From: Nanobdellota archaeon
GTDB taxonomy: Archaea; Nanobdellota; Nanobdellia; SCGC-AAA011-G17; GW2011-AR17
Assembly (NCBI GenBank): GCA_030018575.1
Contig: JASEIA010000003.1
Coordinates: 1 to 32,788 of the forward strand
Length of the DNA: 32,788 nucleotides
Direction of reading: 5' to 3'
A program made the position numbers and the translations under genes. The notes beneath the pieces were generated by a model, which ran no database searches, was not told the DNA's origin, and saw only the letters and a program-made list of their open reading frames with translations. Below, piece by piece: positions 2,489 to 24,247 of this stretch. How positions within the stretch are numbered: position 1 is the stretch's first letter; each line of letters begins with the position of its first letter.

Positions 2489-5400
2489 ATGGCAGACGAA
2501 AACACCAAAATCCCGCCGGGCGGCTACCAGGTTATAAAGGAAGGCAGCGAAGAGGTAATAAGGGTTAATTATGAGCAGGCTCCTTACTCTCCATCCATAG
2601 AGGACAACCCGACTGTCATGATGGATGCCATTGACAAGCTTGCAGAAAATCCTTCTGTTGCAAGGCTCATATTCCTGCAGAGGCGCTTTTATGAATATCC
2701 TTACGAACAGACGCAGATGCTTGTCGAGGTTGCAAACCTCTACAGCTATCTGATAAAATCAAAGAAAGTTCTGAGCCCTGAGTCTTTGGGAACGTCATTT
2801 GAAGCGCAGGGAACGCTTGCAGAAAGGTATGCTGTCATACACTCAATTGTTTTTGAGCTTCTGCGCTCTGACCCATTGGGAGCTTATGTTGAATTAAAGC
2901 GCGTTTTAAGGGCTGAAGTGGCAAAGCAGGAAGCAACAAAAGACCCCAGGCAAAAGGATTCAAGAGAAATATTCTTGGGGCTTTTGAAGGCAATCCTGAA
3001 CATGTTTGAAGAGATGAAGCTTGTCAAGGCAGCTTCTCATTACCTTGCAGGATATAATTTAGGCGACAGGGGAGTGTACCGGCTTTTTTTCAGGGCTGTG
3101 ATTACGCCTGACTTCATGTTCACAAGAGTGATGGCAAATCCCCCTCTTGGCGGGGAAGAGATGGAAGTGTACAGCATTGACAAGGACACAAGCGTCACTT
3201 TATTCAGGGTTAATGACGACATAAAATTCCTTTACCACATGACCCCTCCCGAGTTCACAATCAGCGAGGACAAGTACACGCTTGTTGACATGGCAAAAAC
3301 AGTGCTTTCAGAGCACCAGCCGAAAGAGGGCCAGTTCCTTGACCCGCACAAATTAAGAAACACATTCGCAAATATCGGAAAGGATTTATTGAGAGAGCTT
3401 GCAGAGGCGCAGAATGTAGAGCTTTCAATGAAGGACATAAAGCTTCTTACTGAAATACTCATAAGGCATACAATCGGATTTGGCTTCATGGAGCTTATCT
3501 TAAAGGACCAGAAAGTGCAGGATGCGCAGGTTAATTCGCCAAACGGCGAAGTTCCAATATTTGTGCTGCATGCTGATTATGGGAACTGCACTTCAAACCT
3601 TATACCTGCAAGGACTGACACTGAAAGCTGGGCTTCAAAGTTCAGGCTCCTGAGCGGCAGGCCTTTAGACGAGGCAAACCCTATACTTGACACTGAACTG
3701 CATCTTCCTAATTCCACTTCAAGAGTCTCGATAATTACAAGGCCGCTTAATCCTTACGGGCTTGCATTTTCTTTCAGAAGGCACAGGGATGAGCCGTGGA
3801 CCCTTCCGTTATTTGTCAAGAACAGGATGCTTAACCCTCTTGCAGCAGGGCTTATCAGCTTTCTTGTTGACGGAACAAGGACAATGCTTGTTGCAGGGAC
3901 AAGGTCAAGCGGAAAAACCTCTTTGCTTGGCGGATGCATGATTGAGATAATGAGAAAAAATCGCATTATTACGGTGGAGGACAGCGTTACAGGCGATACT
4001 GAGCTTGTATCTTTCAGAAAAGATGCAGGATATGATATTTCAACATTTGAAGGGCTGTTTGACTCGCTTAAGGAAAAATCCAGCACTATAAACAGCAGGG
4101 AATTCATCAATAACCCCGGATTTAAAGTATTTGCATTTGACAATAAAGGAAAGATAAGGCTTGCAAAAGCAACAAAACTGATAAGGCACAAGGTAACCAA
4201 GCCTATTTATGAAATAACAACTGCCACGGGCAGGATAATCAAGGTAACAGGGGACCATTCGCTATTCAGGATTGGCGAGAGGGATGTTAAGCAGGAAATT
4301 AAGGCGTCAGAAATTAAGGAAGGCGATTTCATCCTTACGCCGAGGAGGCTCTTGTTCAAATGCAAAGAAAAGCCCTACTGGAATATAATGCAGAGCCTGC
4401 TGAAATTTCACATGGACAAGGACATTTTTGTTTCCGGAGACGATTTTGCCCGCACTCTTGCAAAAAGCAGGGGAAAAATAAAAAAAGCATGCAGGAAGCT
4501 AGGGTATAAGCCGGTTACTGCAAATAGCTGGATAAGGAAAGGCATTCTGCCCTTAAAGGCAGCAAATGAAATTGGCATAACAGGCAGAGTGAACAGGCTT
4601 AAGCTCGGCAGGAATTCCGGGTTTGTCCCTGCTACAATAAGGCTGGACAGCCTCTTCCTTTCATTTTTAGGGCTTTGGCTTGCTGACGGCTGTTACGATG
4701 CGCGCTCGGTAATATTATCAGTCAGCAGCGCAGAGGAAAGGAACATAGTGAAAGCAATAGCCCTGAGATACGGCTTTCCGGTTAAAATGCATAGCGACGG
4801 ATTTTCTTTAATGATAAATTCAAAGTCATTTAAGTTCCTTATGAAGGAGCTTTGCTGTTTCAGCGGCAATGCTTATACAAAGCATATACCTCCATGGGTT
4901 TTCAACCTTTCCAGAAAACAAAAATCGTCTTTTTTAAGGGGGCTGTTCAGCGGAGACGGATGCGTTTCTGACAAGGAGATTGTAATCTCGCTTGCGTCAA
5001 GAAAGCTGCTATCTGGCATACAGACTATTCTTCTTGATTACGGCATAATATTCAGGATTAATGCCCTGAGAAAGGCAAAATTTCATCCCAATGACAGGAC
5101 ACGTGACGGAAGAATCAGCGCATTAAATTCCATTAATAGCTTTAAGGAGATTGGATTCTTGCAGAAATATAAGAATATGCGCCTCTCAGCATTGCTGAAG
5201 AAGGTTTCCACGCACGATTCCAGCGATGTTGTCCCCCTGCCGTTAAGCGTCAGGAATGAAATTGCAAGCGCCCTTTCGCAAAAGCAATTTAGTACAAATG
5301 ATTATTTAATAAGAAAAAATGAAATTGGCAGGGGCAAGCTAAAGAAAATAGCAATGGCTTTTAAATCTGCAAAAAGAGGCAAACTCATTTCTTTACTTCT

Positions 5401-6337
5401 GGAAAACCTTGCAGAAAGCGACATATTTTGGGATAAAGCAGCAAGGGTTAGAAAAACAGAGCCTGAACAGTATGTGTATGATATCTCAGTGCCTGGCTAT
5501 GAAAATTTTGTGTGCAACAATATCCTTGCCCATAACACCCTTGAGCTTCCGACAGAAGCAATGAGAAAACTAAATTATGACATACAGCCATTGAAAGTAA
5601 GGGCTGCATTGATGGAAGGCGGCAATGAAATGGCTGCTGCAGAGGGAATAAGAACCTCGTTAAGAATGGGCGACAGCGCGCTGATTATCGGCGAGGTAAG
5701 GAGCAAGGAAGCGATTGCATTGTATGAGGCAATGAGAATCGGCGCAATGGCAAACACTGTCGCAGGCACCATACACGGCGACTCGCCTTACGGAGTTTTT
5801 GACAGGGTTGTCAATGATTTGGGGGTTCCAAGGACTTCATTCAAGGCAACTGACATAATAATTGTTGCAAATCCTTTAAAGAGCCCTGACGGGCTTCACA
5901 GATGGAGAAGGGTTACGCAAATCACAGAAGTAAGGAAAGAATGGGAGCAAGACCCGATGACTGAAGGGGCTTTTGTTGATTTGATGAGGTATAATTCACA
6001 GACAGACCAGCTTGAGCCGACTCCTGAATTGATTAACGGCGAATCAGAGATTTTAAAGACGATTGGGGCAAATGTAAAGGAGTGGACAGGCAACTGGGAC
6101 GCGATATGGGACAACATAATGCTCCGCGCTGAAATAAAAAAGCTGATTGTTGAGTATTCGCAGCGAACAAAGAATCCGCTGATGCTTGAAGCGAAGTTTG
6201 TAATACAGGGAAATGACGTATTCCACAGGATTTCAGAGCAGGTTCTTGAAGAGGCAGGGCACATAGATACAAAGAGAATTCTTTTTGAGTGGGAAGAGTG
6301 GCTCAAGAAGGAAGTAAGAAGAAAGCAGATGGCGTGA
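2489..6337 (+). CDS. FlaI/KlbA-type (type II/IV) secretion ATPase interrupted by an intein
   Basis: The mature protein (764 residues after splicing) is a cytosolic hexameric ATPase of the archaeal GspE/PilT/VirB11 superfamily, which drives pilus assembly or secretion. Walker A is GTRSSGKTS at about residues 472-480 of the precursor. The acidic box ITVED is followed, after the intein, by TLELP; Walker B is DSALIIGEVR and the histidine box TIHGDS. The N-terminal ~430 residues are the extended region usual in archaeal members, ending in the SRVSIITRPL strand before the ATPase core. The ATG has GAGGT at good spacing. The next genes converge from the other strand, and no platform (TadC-like) gene is adjacent, so the partners must be elsewhere or the three small membrane proteins may be involved; that last point is only a guess. 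Confidence 0.9.
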   Translation: MADENTKIPPGGYQVIKEGSEEVIRVNYEQAPYSPSIEDNPTVMMDAIDKLAENPSVARLIFLQRRFYEYPYEQTQMLVEVANLYSYLIKSKKVLSPESLGTSFEAQGTLAERYAVIHSIVFELLRSDPLGAYVELKRVLRAEVAKQEATKDPRQKDSREIFLGLLKAILNMFEEMKLVKAASHYLAGYNLGDRGVYRLFFRAVITPDFMFTRVMANPPLGGEEMEVYSIDKDTSVTLFRVNDDIKFLYHMTPPEFTISEDKYTLVDMAKTVLSEHQPKEGQFLDPHKLRNTFANIGKDLLRELAEAQNVELSMKDIKLLTEILIRHTIGFGFMELILKDQKVQDAQVNSPNGEVPIFVLHADYGNCTSNLIPARTDTESWASKFRLLSGRPLDEANPILDTELHLPNSTSRVSIITRPLNPYGLAFSFRRHRDEPWTLPLFVKNRMLNPLAAGLISFLVDGTRTMLVAGTRSSGKTSLLGGCMIEIMRKNRIITVEDSVTGDTELVSFRKDAGYDISTFEGLFDSLKEKSSTINSREFINNPGFKVFAFDNKGKIRLAKATKLIRHKVTKPIYEITTATGRIIKVTGDHSLFRIGERDVKQEIKASEIKEGDFILTPRRLLFKCKEKPYWNIMQSLLKFHMDKDIFVSGDDFARTLAKSRGKIKKACRKLGYKPVTANSWIRKGILPLKAANEIGITGRVNRLKLGRNSGFVPATIRLDSLFLSFLGLWLADGCYDARSVILSVSSAEERNIVKAIALRYGFPVKMHSDGFSLMINSKSFKFLMKELCCFSGNAYTKHIPPWVFNLSRKQKSSFLRGLFSGDGCVSDKEIVISLASRKLLSGIQTILLDYGIIFRINALRKAKFHPNDRTRDGRISALNSINSFKEIGFLQKYKNMRLSALLKKVSTHDSSDVVPLPLSVRNEIASALSQKQFSTNDYLIRKNEIGRGKLKKIAMAFKSAKRGKLISLLLENLAESDIFWDKAARVRKTEPEQYVYDISVPGYENFVCNNILAHNTLELPTEAMRKLNYDIQPLKVRAALMEGGNEMAAAEGIRTSLRMGDSALIIGEVRSKEAIALYEAMRIGAMANTVAGTIHGDSPYGVFDRVVNDLGVPRTSFKATDIIIVANPLKSPDGLHRWRRVTQITEVRKEWEQDPMTEGAFVDLMRYNSQTDQLEPTPELINGESEILKTIGANVKEWTGNWDAIWDNIMLRAEIKKLIVEYSQRTKNPLMLEAKFVIQGNDVFHRISEQVLEEAGHIDTKRILFEWEEWLKKEVRRKQMA
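3983..5536 (+). other. LAGLIDADG intein inside the secretion ATPase
   Basis: This in-frame 518-residue insertion (precursor residues 499-1016) splits the conserved VED-TLELP segment. It starts with SVTGDTEL (block A, Ser1) and has TGDHSLF (block B, with the TxxH-type histidine). Two dodecapeptide motifs of a homing endonuclease follow, LGLWLADG near 726-733 and LRGLFSGDG near 817-825. It ends YVYDISVPGYENFVCNNILA, then His-Asn, with Thr as the +1 extein residue. All splicing residues (Ser1, block B His, penultimate His, terminal Asn, Thr+1) and both aspartates of the nuclease motifs are present, so it should splice and may still be an active homing nuclease. Between blocks B and C is a basic segment that may help bind DNA. 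Inteins are known in KlbA-family ATPases of Methanocaldococcus and Pyrococcus; whether the site is the same needs an alignment. Confidence 0.92.
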
Positions 6338-17168: not shown

Positions 17169-18929
17169 ATGGGGAAGCTCAAGCTGCCCATCAGGGTATG
17201 GATACTGATTGCATTCCTTCTGTTGTCATTGCTTGCAATAAAGCCCTCGCCTTATGCTTCCGGAGTTCAGATAAAAAGCGTGGAGCCGGGAAGCGAGGCA
17301 GCCATGGAGGGAATTGCGACAGGGCAGATTGTGAAGACAGTGAATGAGCGGCAAATAGCCACAATCACTGATTTCAAGAACGCAATGGCCTTGCTTGAGA
17401 ACCAGCCCCTTCTTTTTTCATCTGAAGTAAAAAGAAAAGACAAAATCACTGTTGTTGAATATAATGTAACAAACAGCTTCGGATTCAGCGCTGACGAGAA
17501 TAATACAATAATCTCTTCAGAGACATTTTCCAAATTGCAGCAGGGAGACATAATCCTCTCTGTTAATGATATTGAAGTTGAAAACAAGACATCGCTTGAT
17601 GAAGCGCTTAATAAGATACTGCCTCAGAAAGTGATAAAGATAACAACTGACAAGGCAAACGCGGCTTTCCTTGCAAGAGGCGCGCCAAAAATAACAGTGG
17701 GAGTTGCTGCAAAAAGCAACCTTAAGAAAGGGCTTGACCTGGAAGGCGGGACAAGGGTTTTGCTAAAGCCGATATCTGCAAACGGGACTGTTTCTGACAA
17801 GGATATTTCAGACCTGATAAGCGTCCTTGGGAACAGGCTTAATGTTTACGGATTAACTGACATGAGAATAAGGAGCGCCGCTGACTGGGCGGGAGAGACA
17901 TTCATACTTATTGAGATTGCAGGCGTTTCAAAAGAGGAAGTAAGCGAGCTTATTGCAAAGCAGGGAAGGTTTGAGGCAAGGATTGGAAACGAAACTGTCT
18001 TTGAGGGTGGAAAGAAGGATATTACTTATGTGTGCAGGAATGATGGGAGTTGCTCTGGAGTAATTCAATGCCAAACTTTTAGCGGAGGAGAATCTTGCAC
18101 ATTCCAGTTTAGCATTCATTTAAGCCCTGAAGCTGCAAAAAAACACGCCGACATAACAAATAAGCTTGACATTGTGCAGTTTGAAGATAACATAAAAGAA
18201 TACTTAAATGAATCACTTGATCTTTATCTTGATAATAAATTGGTAGATAGCCTGCAGATTAGCGCTGACTTGAAGGGAAGCGAGACAACAGCAATTGCGA
18301 TTTCAGGTCCTGGAACCGGCTCTGACAGGAATGCAGCCATTGACAATGCAGCTGCAAACATGAACAAGCTGCAGACAATACTTATCACAGGCTCTTTGCC
18401 TTTTGATTTGGAGATAGTCAAGCTTGACACAATATCCCCTGTGTTGGGAAAGGACTTTACAAGAAATGCAGTGCAGGTCATATTAATAGCATTATTGGGC
18501 ATTGCGCTTGTCATATTCATAAGATACCGCTCTTTCAGGATATTAATACCCCTGATTGTGACTGTTGCAAGCGAAATAATCATCATTTTGGGTTTTGCGG
18601 CGTTAATCCAATGGAATCTTGACATGGCTGCAATTGCGGGAATTATAGCCACTGTCGGAACAGGTGTTGACGCACAGATTGTCATTATAGATGAGGTTAT
18701 GAAAGGAAAGAAAGACTTGTATACAAATTGGAAGGCGAGAATGAAACGGGCTTTCTTCATAATATTCGTGTCTTATGCAGTTGGAGTTGTTGCAATGATT
18801 CCCCTGTGGAATGCAGGCGCCGGATTGGTAAGGGGCTTTGCATTGACAACAATAATCGGAATGACAATCGGCGTGTTCATAACAAGGCCCGCGTTTGCGG
18901 CAATTGCTGAGAAATTAATTAAGGATTAA
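17169..18929 (+). CDS. secD: Protein-export membrane protein SecD with an added PDZ-like region
   Basis: 586 residues, longer than the roughly 400-500 I expect for archaeal SecD. After the first helix (IRVWILIAFLLLSLLAI), residues about 30-165 look like PDZ-type modules: VEPGSEAAMEGIATGQIVKT then LQQGDIILSVNDIEVENKTS. The core begins at GLDLEGGTRVLL (about 190). The P1-type domain includes four cysteines (VCRNDGSCSG and CQTFSGGESC), possibly disulfide-bonded outside the cell. Five C-terminal helices include FIRYRSFRILIPLIVTVASE and the ATVGTGVDAQIVIIDEV motif. GGTGAG lies before the ATG. The PDZ-like part may bind ends of emerging proteins; that is inference. Confidence 0.93.
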   Translation: MGKLKLPIRVWILIAFLLLSLLAIKPSPYASGVQIKSVEPGSEAAMEGIATGQIVKTVNERQIATITDFKNAMALLENQPLLFSSEVKRKDKITVVEYNVTNSFGFSADENNTIISSETFSKLQQGDIILSVNDIEVENKTSLDEALNKILPQKVIKITTDKANAAFLARGAPKITVGVAAKSNLKKGLDLEGGTRVLLKPISANGTVSDKDISDLISVLGNRLNVYGLTDMRIRSAADWAGETFILIEIAGVSKEEVSELIAKQGRFEARIGNETVFEGGKKDITYVCRNDGSCSGVIQCQTFSGGESCTFQFSIHLSPEAAKKHADITNKLDIVQFEDNIKEYLNESLDLYLDNKLVDSLQISADLKGSETTAIAISGPGTGSDRNAAIDNAAANMNKLQTILITGSLPFDLEIVKLDTISPVLGKDFTRNAVQVILIALLGIALVIFIRYRSFRILIPLIVTVASEIIIILGFAALIQWNLDMAAIAGIIATVGTGVDAQIVIIDEVMKGKKDLYTNWKARMKRAFFIIFVSYAVGVVAMIPLWNAGAGLVRGFALTTIIGMTIGVFITRPAFAAIAEKLIKD

Positions 18930-19009
18930 GGCACGTATTTTAGTGTGTGTTCTTTTACATATTCTATAAATCCAAAGTCCTTGACATAATTGGCAAACTC
19001 CTGCCTGAA
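18926..19009 (-). pseudogene. Tail fragment of an Lrp/AsnC-like regulator, copy 1
   Basis: Not in the ORF track. Reading leftward from a stop at 19010-19012, 27 codons give FRQEFANYVKDFGFIEYVKE and end HTLKYVP. They match the last 27 residues of the longer fragment at 20508-20837 at 18 positions. It begins only a few bases after the stop of the DUF4143 ATPase gene and overlaps the secD stop on the other strand. No start codon and no DNA-binding domain remain, so it is a remnant. Confidence 0.6.
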
Positions 19010-19014
19010 CTATC

Positions 19015-20391
19015 CTAAATAAGCGCAAGGAACACAGCAGCGGGCATTATCACTGCCTTGCCGTTATGCATTGTTGTTTTGGAAAGTATAAGCGGCGCCT
19101 TGAATATATTATAATGCGAGAAATCACTCTCACTGACTTTTTCCTGCCATTTTACTTCTACTGCCTGAAACCGCTTTCCCTTCCTGACAACAAAATCCAC
19201 TTCCCCTTTCCTGTCGCGGTAGTACCATACGCTTTCAAGGAGGCGGTTTGCCTTGCGCTTGAGGTGCTCAAGAACTATGCCTTCTATTGCAAATGGCTTG
19301 TTCAGCTCATTAATGCAGCATTCGTGCTTGCCATTCACATATCCGGAAAATGCGCTGAACAGGAATGTGTCCAAAAAATAAAATTTTTTCTGTTTCCTGA
19401 ACACAGGGGCCTTCTTGTTTAGGTCTATCTTATGGACAAAATTAAGCAGCATAAGAGACTCCAGCAGCTCAAGGTATTCCGCCACTGTCTTATGCGAGCC
19501 TATGCTTGTTGCTTTTGCAATGGAATGGAAGGCCAGCTCCGCGCCATACTTGCTCGCCAAAACAGAAATTATTTCCCTGAAAATATGCTCTGATTTTTCC
19601 AGCTTGCTTAAATCCCCAAGTATCCAGTTTACATAATCCTCATATAATTCCTCCGTTATCGCTCCTGTTTCATTAAACTGGTAACCGGACGATAAAAATC
19701 CGCCGGATATAAGGTAATTGTCCATATGGCGGTTTAGCTCGCCCAAAAATGGGATAATATACGCCGCCTTTTGCAGCAGGGCATCAGAAAATGCCTCTTC
19801 CATGGAAAGCGGATTTAAAGCTGCAAGCTCTTTTTTCAAATCTCCGCTCCCAAACAGCCTTACATAATCAGAAAATGAAAGCGGCAAATAGAACATGGTC
19901 TTAACGCCCCTCCCTGGAAATCGTTCTGTTCCATGCTTGAGGTCGCTTGCCACAGAGCCGGTGAAAACAAGCAGGGTGCAGAGCGAACTGTCGGCGAGGT
20001 ACTTTATTGCCCTGAACCATTCCTTTACAAAAGTTATTTCATCAAAAATCACATAGTTCTCCTTTATGTTAAATCGCAGGAGCCACTCCTTATGAAGTTC
20101 TGCCGCCTTTACTATCTCGTTGAAATCTGCCAGCACATCGCATGGGAGATACAGGAACTGCCTTGCATCAGCGCCGTGTTTAAAAACTGATTCCCATATT
20201 AACAGCTTTAAGGCTGTTGTCTTTCCAACCTGCCTTGGGCCCCTTATGGAGCATATGCCCTTTTTCTCGCCGACAAGGGAAGGGATATAAGCTGCTTTTT
20301 TCCCAAGGGCAATGCTGACTTTTCTGTCATGCAGCAGCTCTTCTCTGCTTTTCCACCAAGGGTTATGCTTTGCGAGAAACTCAAATTCCAT
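19015..20391 (-). CDS. DUF4143-type AAA ATPase, copy 1
   Basis: 458 residues from the ATG at 20391; the track start is a TTG four codons earlier. Domains in order: an N-terminal helix ending NPWW, an AAA domain with Walker A GPRQVGKTT and Walker B YVIFDEITFV, and a sensor-like FTGSVASDL. A winged-helix segment (FHSIAKATSIGSHKTVAEYL) follows, then the DUF4143 C-terminus with a PD-(D/E)xK-like fold (GEVDFVVRKG and AVEVKWQ). Such ATPases are abundant and multiplied in archaea; a defence, mobile or DNA-related role is suspected but unknown. A TATA box 25 bases before the ATG predicts a leaderless message, and two copies of an 18-base repeat flank it. Related to the gene at 20943-22250. Confidence 0.85.
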   Translation of the reverse strand: MEFEFLAKHNPWWKSREELLHDRKVSIALGKKAAYIPSLVGEKKGICSIRGPRQVGKTTALKLLIWESVFKHGADARQFLYLPCDVLADFNEIVKAAELHKEWLLRFNIKENYVIFDEITFVKEWFRAIKYLADSSLCTLLVFTGSVASDLKHGTERFPGRGVKTMFYLPLSFSDYVRLFGSGDLKKELAALNPLSMEEAFSDALLQKAAYIIPFLGELNRHMDNYLISGGFLSSGYQFNETGAITEELYEDYVNWILGDLSKLEKSEHIFREIISVLASKYGAELAFHSIAKATSIGSHKTVAEYLELLESLMLLNFVHKIDLNKKAPVFRKQKKFYFLDTFLFSAFSGYVNGKHECCINELNKPFAIEGIVLEHLKRKANRLLESVWYYRDRKGEVDFVVRKGKRFQAVEVKWQEKVSESDFSHYNIFKAPLILSKTTMHNGKAVIMPAAVFLALI

Positions 20392-20392
20392 A

Positions 20393-20443
20393 TTGGTAGT
20401 CAAGTATCAAGACTATATAAATGTTTTGGTAGTCAAGTATCAA
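20393..20443 (-). promoter_or_regulatory. Promoter of ATPase 1 with a paired candidate operator
   Basis: The TATA box (TTTATATAG, 20412-20421) is centred 25 bases before the ATG at 20391. TTGGTAGTCAAGTATCAA occurs exactly twice, at 20393-20410 (over the start site) and 20426-20443 (over the BRE side), 33 bases apart, about three helical turns. A protein bound at both copies would block TBP/TFB and polymerase. The binder is unknown; the ATPase has its own winged-helix segment, so self-control is possible. Confidence 0.6.
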
Positions 20444-20452
20444 AATAATAAG

Positions 20453-20480
20453 CAGTTTTGGCAGTTAATTGCCCAAACTG
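20453..20480. terminator. Imperfect 11-bp inverted repeat
   Basis: CAGTTTTGGCA and TGCCCAAACTG pair at 10 of 11 positions around a six-base loop. It lies downstream (minus strand) of Lrp-like fragment 2 and upstream of the ATPase 1 promoter, so it could end transcripts from the right. There is only a weak T-run after it on the minus strand. Confidence 0.35.
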
Positions 20481-20507
20481 GAAGAGGCGCTTCGCTGCTA
20501 TTGCTTC

Positions 20508-20837
20508 TTAAGGCAAATACTTCATCGTGTGCTCTTTCACATACTCTAAGAACTCAAAGCCCTTCACGTAATCTGAGAATTTATTTCTGAATTCCTCGAT
20601 TAATGCATAAAGCTCTTCTGTATCTTTTATATATAACTCAATTTCAAGGTCAGCTCCGCCTATTGTCTCGTCAAGATAGGCAATAGCGGGCTTTGCCTGC
20701 ATAAAAGCCTTTATCTGCTGCAGGATATCTTTTGAAATGTTTCTCAGGAAGAAGTAAATCTTGTAGTATTTGCAGCCGAGAACATTTATATCCAAAGCAG
20801 GCCTGAAGCCGAGGATGTATGTATTAAAATGGAAGAG
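20508..20837 (-). pseudogene. Truncated Lrp/AsnC-like regulator, C-terminal (RAM-like) part
   Basis: The track lists 95 residues from a TTG, but the frame stays open to a TAG at 20838-20840 and the extra residues (YILGFRPALDINVLGCKYYK) read like normal protein. The fold pattern KIYFFLRNISKDILQQIKAF, then IGGADLEIELYIKDTEELYA and a YVKEHTMKYLP ending resembles the ligand-binding RAM domain of Lrp/AsnC-family regulators, especially the longer archaeal ones. The N-terminal helix-turn-helix is absent and there is no good start, so it is probably a remnant. It lies between the two DUF4143 ATPase genes; a shorter piece of the same tail follows ATPase 1. Confidence 0.6.
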
Positions 20838-20942
20838 CTAACAAACTATCTGGAACAATCAAACGAAACTGAAACGCTTGCTGAAGAGCAAAGAAAGCAG
20901 AAGCTTAGGGCGCACATTGCTTGCCGGGGAATGCAGCGGCCT

Positions 20943-22250
20943 TCACAGCAGCAAAAACACGCTTGCAGGAACAATAGCCATGTTTTCCTTCTCAATGAAC
21001 TCAAAGCTGTCTTTTGAAAGGAGGATTTTATTTTTAAGCTCAACAGCGGAAAAATCGCTTTTTTTAACCTTGTTCTGCCACTTCAGCTCAATGCCTGTAT
21101 CTTCCACATAGAAATCAACTTCTTTTTTCTGGTAATAATAGCAAACCCTGCCGAATTTTCTGGCAAGATGCTCTGCCACAATGCCTTCTATCAGCCGCGG
21201 GACTTCCTCTTCCCTTATCCTTGTTTTTGTAAGCTCCCTCTTGAAAACATGGAAGAGAAAAGGGTCTATAAAGTAAGCTTTTCTCATCCTTGCAAATGCC
21301 TCCACCCCCTTCTTTAAATCAATCGGGAACATGTTTCGCAAAACAAAAAGGTTTTCGAGGATTTCCAGATACTCCCTTATTGTTACATGGGAGCCTATCT
21401 CCATTTCCTTGGCAATTGAGTTAAGGGAGAACCTTGTGCCATAATTTTTCAGCACTCCCAGCAATGTTGATGAAGCTATTCTCTCGCTTCTCTCTGCTTT
21501 GGCTATGTCTGCAACAAGCCACTTCCAGTATATATCATAGGTTTCGTCCCTTATCTTTCCGTCTTCCATAAGCTCATACATGCTTCTTGGAAACCCGCCG
21601 CATATTGTGTAAGAGCTGAACAGCCTGTCTATTTCGCTGAAATAAAAAAGGAGCTTTTTTGCCGCTCTGTTCACTTCTGCGGCATTCAGGGAGGAAATTT
21701 CTGCGGCAAGCTCGCGTTTAAGGCTCTCGCTTCCGAACACCATGCAGAAATCCTTGAACGACAACGGCATGAAATGCACTGTTTTAATCCTTCTGCCCGG
21801 AAATGTTTCTTTTTTAAGCTCAATTGAAGAAGAGCCGGTGATGTGTATTATCTTGTTTCTTGACATGGGGGAATCCAGAATAAACTTTATAGCCCTCTGC
21901 CAATCGTCAACAAAGGTTATTTCATCAAAAAAAAGGTATTTTTTCCCTGCCGCCAGCGCATCTGAAATTCTTACAATCTCAACAATGTCATTGAAATCCT
22001 TCAGCACGTCACAAGAGAAATAAAGCGCCTGTTTCGGATTAACGCCTTTTTCAATGAGGTTTTTTATGTAAAGCTTTATGAAGGTGGTTTTCCCAACCTG
22101 CCTTGGGCCAGTAATAAGCTGATTCTCTTCAGTGAATGAATATCCTATCTTATGCTTTCTTGCAATGCTCTCCTTTACTTTTTCATCTTCGCTTATTGCC
22201 GCCTTGTCTTCCCACCATGGGTTCTGCTCTGTGATTTGCCTTATTTCCAT
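20943..22250 (-). CDS. DUF4143-type AAA ATPase, copy 2
   Basis: 435 residues from the ATG at 22250 (MEIRQITEQNPWW). The 24 extra residues of the track ORF come from the promoter and are rejected because a TATA box is centred 26 bases before this ATG. Same architecture as copy 1: Walker A GPRQVGKTT, Walker B YLFFDEITFVDDW, ITGSSSIEL, a winged-helix segment (LNSIAKEMEIGSHVTIREYL), and a nuclease-like C-terminus (KEVDFYVEDTGIELKWQ). The shared NPWW start, spacing and C-terminal ending (IVPASVFLLL here, MPAAVFLALI there) show they are paralogs, clearly diverged. Function unknown; see copy 1. The message is probably leaderless. Confidence 0.85.
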   Translation of the reverse strand: MEIRQITEQNPWWEDKAAISEDEKVKESIARKHKIGYSFTEENQLITGPRQVGKTTFIKLYIKNLIEKGVNPKQALYFSCDVLKDFNDIVEIVRISDALAAGKKYLFFDEITFVDDWQRAIKFILDSPMSRNKIIHITGSSSIELKKETFPGRRIKTVHFMPLSFKDFCMVFGSESLKRELAAEISSLNAAEVNRAAKKLLFYFSEIDRLFSSYTICGGFPRSMYELMEDGKIRDETYDIYWKWLVADIAKAERSERIASSTLLGVLKNYGTRFSLNSIAKEMEIGSHVTIREYLEILENLFVLRNMFPIDLKKGVEAFARMRKAYFIDPFLFHVFKRELTKTRIREEEVPRLIEGIVAEHLARKFGRVCYYYQKKEVDFYVEDTGIELKWQNKVKKSDFSAVELKNKILLSKDSFEFIEKENMAIVPASVFLLL

Positions 22251-22270
22251 TATTGTTAATAGAATGTCAA

Positions 22271-22338
22271 AGTTTATAAGCTTTTTGATAGTTAATATCA
22301 GAAAAGTATCATTTTTTGACATTTAAATATCAAAAAGC
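22271..22338 (-). promoter_or_regulatory. Promoter of ATPase 2 with inverted-repeat candidate operators
   Basis: The TATA box (GCTTATAAAC) is at 22272-22281. GCTTTTTGATA (22280-22290) and its exact reverse complement TATCAAAAAGC (22328-22338) bracket a 37-base stretch that also contains TGATA-gttaa-TATCA and AAGTATCA. The last word also occurs in the operator repeats of ATPase 1 (AAGTATCAA). The layout suggests a regulator that recognises GATA/TATC-type half-sites at both genes. Confidence 0.5.
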
Positions 22339-22359
22339 ACGAACGGCAGGCTTTTCCGC

Positions 22360-22467
22360 CTATTTCCTTGCCCTTTTCCACAGAATCTCAAACTGCTTTC
22401 TGTAGCCGTCGGCAGCAGCCTTGTCTTTGATTAGCACGCCGTAGGGGCTTTTTTGTTTCTTTTCCAT
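22360..22467 (-). pseudogene. C-terminal remnant resembling a TrmB-type regulator
   Basis: Not in the ORF track. 35 codons from an ATG read ...SPYGVLIKDKAAADGYRKQF then EILWKRARK and stop. The frame stays open about 11 codons further upstream. This resembles the end of archaeal TrmB-like transcription regulators (a GV-I-D segment followed by Y..FE.LW). It is too short to function and has no promoter of its own, so I read it as a remnant. The assignment rests on a short match from memory. Confidence 0.35.
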
Positions 22468-22538: not shown

Positions 22539-23129
22539 ATGTATGACAATACTGAAATAAGGATTTTAGGACAAATTTATACAAAGCCATGCATCCACAA
22601 GAGAGAGCTCTCAAAGCAGCTTAAGCTAAGCATGCCTTCTGTGGATTATGCGCTAAAGAAGATAAGCAAGCTGCTTAAAACGCAGAAAGCAGGCAACCAG
22701 ATAAGGTATTTTATAGATTATTCAAAAGAGGAGCTTACGCCAATGCTTTATGCAGTGGAATATTCAAGGCTTGGGCAGCTTCCTGCAAAGGCAAGGATTG
22801 CAATAGCTGATTTTTTAAGGGAATTGGAGGATAAGCCCATTATTGCGCTCATATTCGGCTCGTATGCGAGAGGAGATTATACAAAAGAGTCGGATATAGA
22901 CCTACTTCTGGTATTCCAAAAGATTGGAAATGCAAAGGGCATAGAAAACACAGCCAACAAGATTAGCATGAGGACGAGCACAAAAATAAGCCCTGTTTAT
23001 CTTGATTATGCCTCATTTAAAGAATCTGTTCATAACTCCACTAAAGAGTTTTACAAAAACCTTAAGAAGGGGAAGATAATTCTAACGGGAATAGAATGGT
23101 GGAGGCAGATGGAGCATGAGGAAGCCTGA
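22539..23129 (+). CDS. HTH plus MNT-type nucleotidyltransferase (MntA-like antitoxin)
   Basis: 196 residues. The first ~75 form a winged helix-turn-helix (CIHKRELSKQLKLSMPSVDY). The second part is a minimal nucleotidyltransferase with GSYARGDYTKESDIDLLLVF, keeping the GS motif and the DxD metal pair. In the MNT/HEPN toxin-antitoxin pair the MNT partner attaches AMP to the HEPN RNase toxin and silences it. An overlapping downstream frame that begins like such a partner is present but cut short (next entry), so this looks like an antitoxin that has lost its toxin. The fused DNA-binding domain suggests it could control its own promoter. Confidence 0.82.
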   Translation: MYDNTEIRILGQIYTKPCIHKRELSKQLKLSMPSVDYALKKISKLLKTQKAGNQIRYFIDYSKEELTPMLYAVEYSRLGQLPAKARIAIADFLRELEDKPIIALIFGSYARGDYTKESDIDLLLVFQKIGNAKGIENTANKISMRTSTKISPVYLDYASFKESVHNSTKEFYKNLKKGKIILTGIEWWRQMEHEEA

Positions 23130-23283
23130 CTGGCGGCTTTGGCTTAAGGACAAAAAGGAATGCAAGATTTGGATAGGCATTTATGAAAGAAAGAGCCTGC
23201 TCAGGAAGAGTGCAGATGAATCAAATCTGCATCTGAGTATGGCTTTCCTTTTAATGCTTTTATTTCCTCAGGCTTTATTATAG
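23116..23283 (+). pseudogene. Truncated HEPN-like toxin partner
   Basis: Not in the ORF track. An ATG at 23116 overlaps the end of the nucleotidyltransferase gene by 14 bases and has GGAGG before it. The frame encodes 55 residues beginning MRKPDWRLWLKDKKECKIWI and continuing through RKSADESNLHLS. These look like the start of the proteins encoded after MNT antitoxins in archaea. From about 23240 on, the frame is simply antisense to the threonine synthase remnant, so the rest of the gene is missing. The HEPN assignment rests on position and a short N-terminal resemblance. Confidence 0.4.
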
Positions 23284-23413
23284 GCATATTATCAGGCATA
23301 AAAAGGCCGTTGTCAGGCGCAATGCCCATGAAAAGCGCCTCTCTGAATGAAACCTTGTCCTTAAACCCTTCAAAATCCCTGTTTGTGCTGTAATAAAGCG
23401 TTTTATCAGGCAT
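23201..23413 (-). pseudogene. thrC: Threonine synthase, first ~60 codons only
   Basis: From the ATG at 23413 the product reads MPDKTLYYSTNRDFEGFKDK, then VSFREALFMGIAPDNGLFMP, the characteristic start of threonine synthase (phosphohomoserine to threonine, PLP enzyme of about 400-500 residues). Homology stops near GKPYSD and the frame ends a few codons later, so the PLP lysine and almost all of the enzyme are missing. The promoter is intact: the TATA box at 23434-23443 lies 25 bases before the ATG and is shared with the gene on the other strand. The gene is dead through a 3' deletion, and a leaderless transcript may still be made. Confidence 0.7.
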
Positions 23414-23433
23414 AAGCTGGATACAGCGGCAAG

Positions 23434-23443
23434 GCTTAAATAG
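23434..23443. promoter_or_regulatory. Single TATA box serving two diverging starts
   Basis: GCTTAAATAG is TATA-like in both directions (CTATTTAAGC on the other strand). Its centre is 25 bases from the thrC-remnant ATG (23413) and 27 bases from the RMD1-family ATG (23465). Both would be leaderless. Confidence 0.5.
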
Positions 23444-23464
23444 TTTTCCGCCTTCTTTAATGCC

Positions 23465-24247
23465 ATGGCAGACCATTTGTTAAAGGCGGTATTTTTAGCG
23501 AAAGAGCTTCCAATTGTTAAAGTAAAAGATGTTTTAAAGTACAAGCTTGTTTCAGAGAAAAGGGACAGGGCTGTTTTTGAAATATCCCCCAAGAAATATG
23601 TTTTTGCATACTCGTTTGGCGCTTTGGCGTTCTTTGATGTTGATGATGTGATGATAAGCGCCACAATCAAGAATCTAAGAGGATTAAAGGTTGAGATATT
23701 AAAGGACAAGATATGGGATGAGTACAAAGTAATTGACCATGTCAAGAATTCCGTAGAGTTTAATCTTATAAGAATGAAGACAGCTGACCTTGAGCACATG
23801 AGCCTTGTTGCATTGGTTTTAGCACAGTCTGTTGCGCTTGAGTTCTATGAAAACCAGGTTGATGCAATGGTAACGCAGTTTTCGCCGCTGAACAAGCAGC
23901 TGAGCGAGAAAGGCAAGCTTGCTGCAAGGGACAAGCAGATATTGAAAGTGGTTGGAGGCAACAATACGGTCATTGAGGTAATAGTATCAAAGCTTTCCCT
24001 GCTTGAGGAGCCTGCTTCTGCCTGGGAAAACGAGGAAATGGAATGGCTCTTCAACAGGCTGCATTACATGTTTGAGATTGAGGAAAGGTTCAAGCATGTC
24101 CAGTATAAGCTTGGCTTTATCCAGAACAACTCAGAGCTAATGCTTGAGGTTCTGCGTGGAAGAAGGGATGCGATGCTTGAATGGATAATAATCGCGCTTA
24201 TTGCTTTTGAGATATTGATATTTGTTTATGAGATTTGGTTCAAGTGA
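23465..24247 (+). CDS. RMD1/DUF155 family protein
   Basis: 260 residues. The N-terminal alpha/beta part has KKYVFAYSFGALAFFDVDD, the VFxFG-type strand of the family. A helical middle (ALVLAQSVALEFYENQVDAM) follows, then a C-terminal coiled region with an LEVLRGRRDAMLEWIIIALI membrane anchor. Fungal and animal members (Rmd1, RMND1) are mitochondrial inner-membrane proteins supporting translation or meiotic division; the archaeal role is unknown. The ATG is 27 bases from a bidirectional TATA box. The gene ends exactly where the convergent DUF362 gene ends, without a spacer. Confidence 0.85.
   Translation: MADHLLKAVFLAKELPIVKVKDVLKYKLVSEKRDRAVFEISPKKYVFAYSFGALAFFDVDDVMISATIKNLRGLKVEILKDKIWDEYKVIDHVKNSVEFNLIRMKTADLEHMSLVALVLAQSVALEFYENQVDAMVTQFSPLNKQLSEKGKLAARDKQILKVVGGNNTVIEVIVSKLSLLEEPASAWENEEMEWLFNRLHYMFEIEERFKHVQYKLGFIQNNSELMLEVLRGRRDAMLEWIIIALIAFEILIFVYEIWFK

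Follow-up and report, generated by a model that had tools for sequence, protein, structure and literature searches.

In e14 at icd, in tRNA-integrating elements and in fungal mitochondrial mobile open reading frames (ORFs), integration leaves the host gene with a functional 3′ end, and the displaced tail is found beyond the element. Insertion with long target duplication has been described for restriction-modification (R-M) genes in Helicobacter pylori (Nobusato et al. 2000, as cited in PMC1643837 and PMC3031569), and homology-facilitated illegitimate recombination, in which foreign DNA is joined by homology at one side and illegitimately at the other and may end up flanked by duplications, has been documented in Acinetobacter, Pseudomonas and Streptococcus (PMC2884548, PMC3240628). 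Here we describe an array from a Nanobdellota archaeon (GenBank assembly GCA_030018575.1), located in a window of 32,788 nucleotides, i.e., the whole stretch that was analysed (contig JASEIA010000003.1, positions 1 to 32,788, forward strand), in which two ATPase genes of the AAA_14/DUF4143 type alternate with three orphan regulator C-termini. Comparison with related loci suggests that single ATPase-gene cassettes were probably inserted successively at the 3′ ends of resident regulators, with long target duplication.

As far as the later accounts of the Helicobacter insertions go, these share with the archaeal loci an otherwise intact site, long direct target repeats of variable length, selfish or defence cargo, and neither transposase nor terminal repeats. 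The present loci differ in being archaeal, in carrying a single AAA_14/DUF4143 or ATPase_2 gene (PDC-S01/S27) instead of an R-M system, in using mostly gene 3′ ends, in a far copy that starts at the stop codon of the cargo, and in a partly synonymous divergence between the upstream (U) and downstream (D) repeat copies. Unlike the elements that restore a 3′ end, they include no integrase or homing endonuclease family, occupy varied hosts and are inserted in both orientations. The open-access literature contained no report of insertion with long target duplication for DUF4143/AAA_14 genes, ATPase_2 genes or these archaea, and no relevant literature on DUF4143; for the archaeal ATPases described here, this mode of insertion seems to be new.

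On the minus strand the array reads TrmB-type tail, ATPase 2, Lrp-type tail, ATPase 1 and a 27-codon Lrp-type tail, followed by the convergent gene SecD. Its features and the two genes that bound it are the following:

22357 to 22446, minus strand: orphan tail of a TrmB-type regulator, comprising the last 28-29 codons, with its stop codon at 22360-22362
22265 to 22336, minus strand: predicted operator/promoter of ATPase 2, with the palindrome TTTTTGATATTTAAATGTCAAAAA (22336-22313) and TGATATTAACTATCA..TATA..TTTGACA (22300-22265), the putative left edge of cassette 2
20943 to 22250, minus strand: ATPase 2, AAA_14 and DUF4143 (Pfam), PDC-S01 (PADLOC), with the nuclease-type motif D379..E388-x-K390
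20508 to 20795, minus strand: orphan Lrp-type tail upstream of ATPase 1, the upstream copy of the repeat around this gene
20393 to 20443, minus strand: predicted operator/promoter of ATPase 1, with two 18-bp direct repeats TTGATACTTGACTACCAA on either side of the TATA box CATTTATATAG
19015 to 20391, minus strand: ATPase 1, AAA_14 and DUF4143, PDC-S01
18926 to 19009, minus strand: orphan 27-codon Lrp-type tail, the downstream repeat copy, beginning 6 bp past the ATPase 1 stop codon
17169 to 18929, plus strand: SecD, convergent, its stop codon overlapping that of the 27-codon tail, used as synteny anchor
22539 to 23129, plus strand: HTH-nucleotidyltransferase gene (MNT type) bounding the array at the other side, with an ortholog in congener G003 (L093, 4050-4640)

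An initial annotation of the sequence had proposed the order ATPase 2, Lrp-like fragment of 110 codons, ATPase 1, Lrp-like fragment of 27 codons, and had aligned the two fragments. Both proposals were confirmed: 18 of 27 residues are identical, and at the DNA level 65 bp match with 75% identity (20572-20508 and 18990-18926; E 2e-10 to 3e-9), so that chance need not be invoked for this pair. Within the 110-codon frame (20837-20508), about 87 codons (20771-20511) are homologous to the C-terminus of double-Lrp/AsnC regulators of ~325 aa (E 1e-19 to relatives; 5e-28 with a hidden Markov model (HMM) of the tail), and the shorter tail corresponds to the final 27 codons of that regulator family (E 1e-7 when the whole genome was searched; 4e-4 with the tail HMM and 1e-5 with a shorter model). 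Full-length relatives of these tails, at 41-42% identity, are present in other genera, and a whole-genome search found no third orphan tail of exactly this type. The TrmB-like tail that had been noted near 22360 is also real, since 22446-22357 shares 86% DNA identity over 90 bp with the 3′ end of an intact TrmB gene (PF01978) of G003, although it is located upstream of ATPase 2. This intact gene abuts SecD, orthologs of which were found in 20/20 relatives.

According to the reading we favour, each cassette would consist of its own operator/promoter and ORF and would end at the stop codon, and the two cassettes would have been inserted one after the other behind resident regulator genes. With each insertion, approximately the terminal 60-125 bp of the resident gene would have appeared a second time beyond the cassette, the duplicated tail leaving the host gene unbroken. 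The window would thus represent an old array of the form tail-ATPase-tail-ATPase-tail, whose regulator bodies later disappeared. We infer the order of events in the window, a joining by host repair or recombination, and a role of the tails as homology arms for later insertions. The window is the decayed end of a series, and the case rests on fresher loci of the same genus.

The shared order and orientation of the two units could also reflect a tandem duplication of one ATPase together with its tail, as had been considered in the initial annotation. This is very improbable, because the two ATPases are only 42% identical, ATPase 2 being nearer to a Methanoperedens protein (81%), because each has its own operator, and because the tails, 95 and 27 codons long, differ mainly at third codon positions (16 of the 25 differences in 81 positions) and are saturated at synonymous sites. 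The predicted operators are dissimilar, consisting of palindromes with TGACA/TGTCA for ATPase 2 and of direct repeats for ATPase 1; TATA boxes flanked by TGACA/TGTCA sites related to those of ATPase 2 were found at three further loci (L060, L062 and L064). The third-position bias indicates that the tails diverged as working genes. The duplication was therefore rejected on the basis of ATPase identity and codon-position differences.

Across approximately 600 kb of sequence from loci of this genome and its relatives, the same arrangement was found at unrelated genes. In a systematic test, direct repeats flanking ATPase genes (E ≤ 1e-4) were counted, with 568 other genes as controls, taken from the nearly complete congener G001. 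Such repeats were detected around 16/55 ATPases (AAA_14/DUF4143 and ATPase_2 combined), window ATPase 1 among them, versus 12/568 other genes (odds ratio 19, p = 2e-11); for repeats of at least 45 bp the counts were 12/55 and 6/568 (p 8e-10). As the ATPase_2 profile was partly seeded with genes first spotted by their repeats, the figure for AAA_14 ATPases alone (11/46, p 9e-8) is the cleaner one. The repeats reproduce the end of the gene at which the ATPase was inserted and vary in length between events, most measuring 59-124 bp and one 301 bp, and in the freshest cases the second copy begins 0-2 bp past the ATPase stop codon. On contig 51 of G003 (L248), an ATPase follows a 235-aa DUF7343 gene and is itself followed, 1 bp past its stop codon, by a tail repeat of 119 bp (39/39 codons, 98% identity). 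On contig 108 of the same genome (L250) an ATPase_2/DUF234 gene lies antisense at the end of what we take, from our own reading of its sequence, to be a gas-vesicle gene, with a 124-bp repeat (94%) again 1 bp past the stop codon. At a thiF locus (L218) the repeat measures 92 bp (88%) and its second copy begins 0 bp past the ATPase stop, while on contig 26 of G002 (L244) an ATPase with flanking repeats is found at glyS. The thiF locus on contig 148 of G000 reads tail-ATPase-tail-ATPase-tail, which points to serial insertion there too.

It could be argued that decaying regulators lie near ATPases by accident and that the repeats stem from gene-family paralogy or assembly overlaps. Some repeats do derive from multi-copy families (pilin-like genes, Lrp-like tails), and all genomes are drafts, namely metagenome-assembled genomes (MAGs), with that of the window estimated to be 6.6% contaminated. 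This explanation is nevertheless improbable in view of the enrichment over other genes, of single-copy hosts such as glyS and thiF, and of the occurrence of the arrangement in at least four separate genomes; assembly overlap is unlikely because the repeat copies are not identical.

Empty sites were identified for three hosts. The glyS gene is uninterrupted and has a single tail in G000, G001 and G003 (L278-L280), in contrast to the occupied locus of G002, and thiF is uninterrupted in G003 (L275) compared to the occupied L218; the flanking repeats of L244 and L218 match the single copy in the empty sites of the congeners. In Methanophagales, glnA is directly followed by GDH in G188 (L133), while a homolog of ATPase 2 is located between the two genes in G146 (L128). 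For the window itself, the occupied-versus-empty comparison covers the TrmB-SecD junction of G003.

Comparison of close homologs at unrelated loci provided the cassette edges: similarity begins in the operator/TATA region, ~60-90 bp before the ATG, and ends at or a few bases from the stop codon (G001 versus G003, 90%; L244/L248/L257, 65-73%; window versus Methanoperedens L059, 81%). The 90%-identical ATPases of G001 and G003 have ~90 bp in common upstream and nothing after the stop, the upstream similarity of window ATPase 2 to L059 starts at its operator region, and no conserved 3′ sequence past the ATPase stop was found in any of these comparisons. Because similarity spans the operator/TATA region to the stop codon, the mobile unit is the promoter/operator plus the ORF. 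Retrocopying through mRNA was ruled out, as the cassette holds promoter/operator sequence from upstream of the transcription start. What comparison between loci shows directly are the repeats beside the ATPases, the edges of the cassettes and the empty sites of relatives; we regard the insertion pattern as well supported.

Several observations weigh against successive insertion with target duplication. Around 70% of the ATPases have no detectable repeat, and in G001 other single genes (Fic, YhcG nuclease, ORF6N, nucleotidyltransferases) lie between similar long direct repeats. In the window, no significant TrmB copy follows ATPase 2 (29/500 shuffles score equally high), and neither an intact Lrp gene beside SecD nor an empty site was found among the SecD 3′ neighbours of 18 relatives. 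Moreover, in sense insertions 27/38 differences between U and D copies fall at third codon positions, a pattern not expected if a simple target duplication had decayed neutrally; it points to another lineage as the occasional source of one copy.

The last point bears on homology-facilitated illegitimate recombination, in which a foreign donor tail with its ATPase would pair with the resident tail at one end and be joined illegitimately at the other, so that donor and displaced native tails flank the ATPase. We regard this as a serious possibility, of somewhat less than even probability. The mainly synonymous differences between U and D copies (third positions in the window as given above, and 9/11 at thiF) and a DRG-type tail in G075, 41% different with its motifs kept, fit one copy having been brought by incoming DNA; similarity often stops at the host stop codon, and the process itself is documented (PMC2884548, PMC3240628). 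The far junction, however, recurs 0-8 bp past the ATPase stop, a regularity not expected from illegitimate joining alone and not described in the sources on this process. At L250 the repeat continues beyond the stop codon of the host gene, with differences evenly distributed among the codon positions, which fits a true target duplication, and the copies of L248 are nearly identical. The U and D copies of the window and thiF resemble diverged coding alleles; those of L248 and L250 are 98% and 94% identical.

Returning to insertion at gene 3′ ends with the tail left behind, this part of the original proposal is supported, while regulator genes as landing sites cover only some of the cases: in addition to Lrp-type and TrmB-like regulators, thiF, glyS, a gas-vesicle gene and pilin-like genes are used. 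Lrp-type tails also adjoin further ATPases in this genome (contigs C28, C126, C143 and C145), and on contig 129 an ATPase_2 gene is flanked by a TrmB-like tail. A family of antisense tails has five copies in the whole genome, every one beside an ATPase; it matches the Lrp model C-terminus to C-terminus (E 0.008-0.01) and is 33% identical to a 344-aa regulator. Gene 3′ ends, where a long duplication would leave the host gene intact, are the likelier landing rule. The proposed mobility of the ATPases agrees with the repeats, the empty sites and the recurrent Lrp-type tails, but an origin of such repeats through ATPases only was ruled out, as other genes carry them too.

Among the loci with other cargo, a Fic gene lies between 100-bp direct repeats of 92% identity (L304, G001:C9, 13529-14910). 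ORF6N and DUF1861 genes (L308, G001:C14, 14159-16782) and a nucleotidyltransferase gene (L313, G001:C21, 5975-7688) are enclosed by long direct repeats, the second copy beginning at the stop codon of the last gene and of the nucleotidyltransferase gene, respectively. Another nucleotidyltransferase gene lies within 346-bp direct repeats that are 95% identical (L221, G000:C136, 3755-5550).

Both window ATPases match AAA_14 and DUF4143 above the curated cut-offs (E 1e-13 to 1e-27), with Walker A and B motifs present, and PADLOC places both in PDC-S01, a candidate family of single-gene defence systems. A Ca. Methanoperedens protein shares 81% identity with ATPase 2 and one of Methanophagales 71%, while the ATPase 2 subfamily is absent from the three congeners (search with ATPase 1, E ≤ 1e-20), a distribution that points to spread across phyla. 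Carriage by viruses was rejected, as viral contigs yielded only distant relatives (24-31%). No solved structural relative of ATPase 2 was found by sequence match, and its predicted model, of medium quality (pLDDT 63), matches only generic AAA+ proteins, e.g., RuvB and clamp loaders. In Methanosarcinales, a homolog of ATPase 2 (L064, 3974-5245) is split into three frames and is apparently decaying.

The cassette edges at operator and stop codon, the enrichment of repeats at ATPases, the like behaviour of two ATPase families and the E-x-D..E-x-K nuclease-type motif, which is invariant in the window subfamily, would all suit a self-mobilising one-gene element, whose ATPase binds the operator as left end and whose nuclease-type DUF4143 domain cuts the target. 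We consider this unlikely. The ATPases of L244 and L248 have QV-C in place of E-x-K and are nonetheless flanked by clear repeats, which makes it less likely that insertion strictly requires the nuclease of the ATPase itself; similar repeats surround Fic, ORF6N and nucleotidyltransferase genes, and there are neither terminal repeats nor a recombinase motif. It is similarly doubtful that two families of archaeal single-gene ATPases are autonomous mobile elements, with the operator as left and the stop codon as right end, that integrate at gene 3′ ends with ~100-bp duplications and use shared tails as portable homology arms to build ATPase arrays.

Further genes were observed in the window. Positions 23095-23283 (plus strand) hold the truncated beginning of what appears to be a HEPN-type partner of the nucleotidyltransferase; it shares 45% identity with L062 6501-7061 and has no Pfam match. 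Next to the nucleotidyltransferase gene, positions 23201-23476 (minus strand) hold an N-terminal threonine synthase fragment where the three congeners have adenosylhomocysteinase. At 2489-6337 (plus strand), a Type II/IV secretion ATPase carries, in frame, an intein that includes a LAGLIDADG domain (Pfam Intein_splicing, E 2e-29). A complete-looking R-M pair, consisting of an N4/N6 DNA methylase and a Tsp45I-type restriction enzyme (E 8e-118), is located at the contig edge (256-2226, minus strand).

Genes of the AAA_14/DUF4143 and ATPase_2 types are broadly distributed, frequently present in several copies, and lack an explanation. A concrete signature of mobility, marked by empty sites and by insertions that can be dated, would account for their patchy spread over phyla, would explain orphan regulator tails that annotation pipelines miss, and would link candidate single-gene defence families (PDC-S01, S27 and S02) to the insertion mode of restriction systems. 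The 25-year-old question of how genes insert with long target duplication would thereby become testable in a second domain of life.

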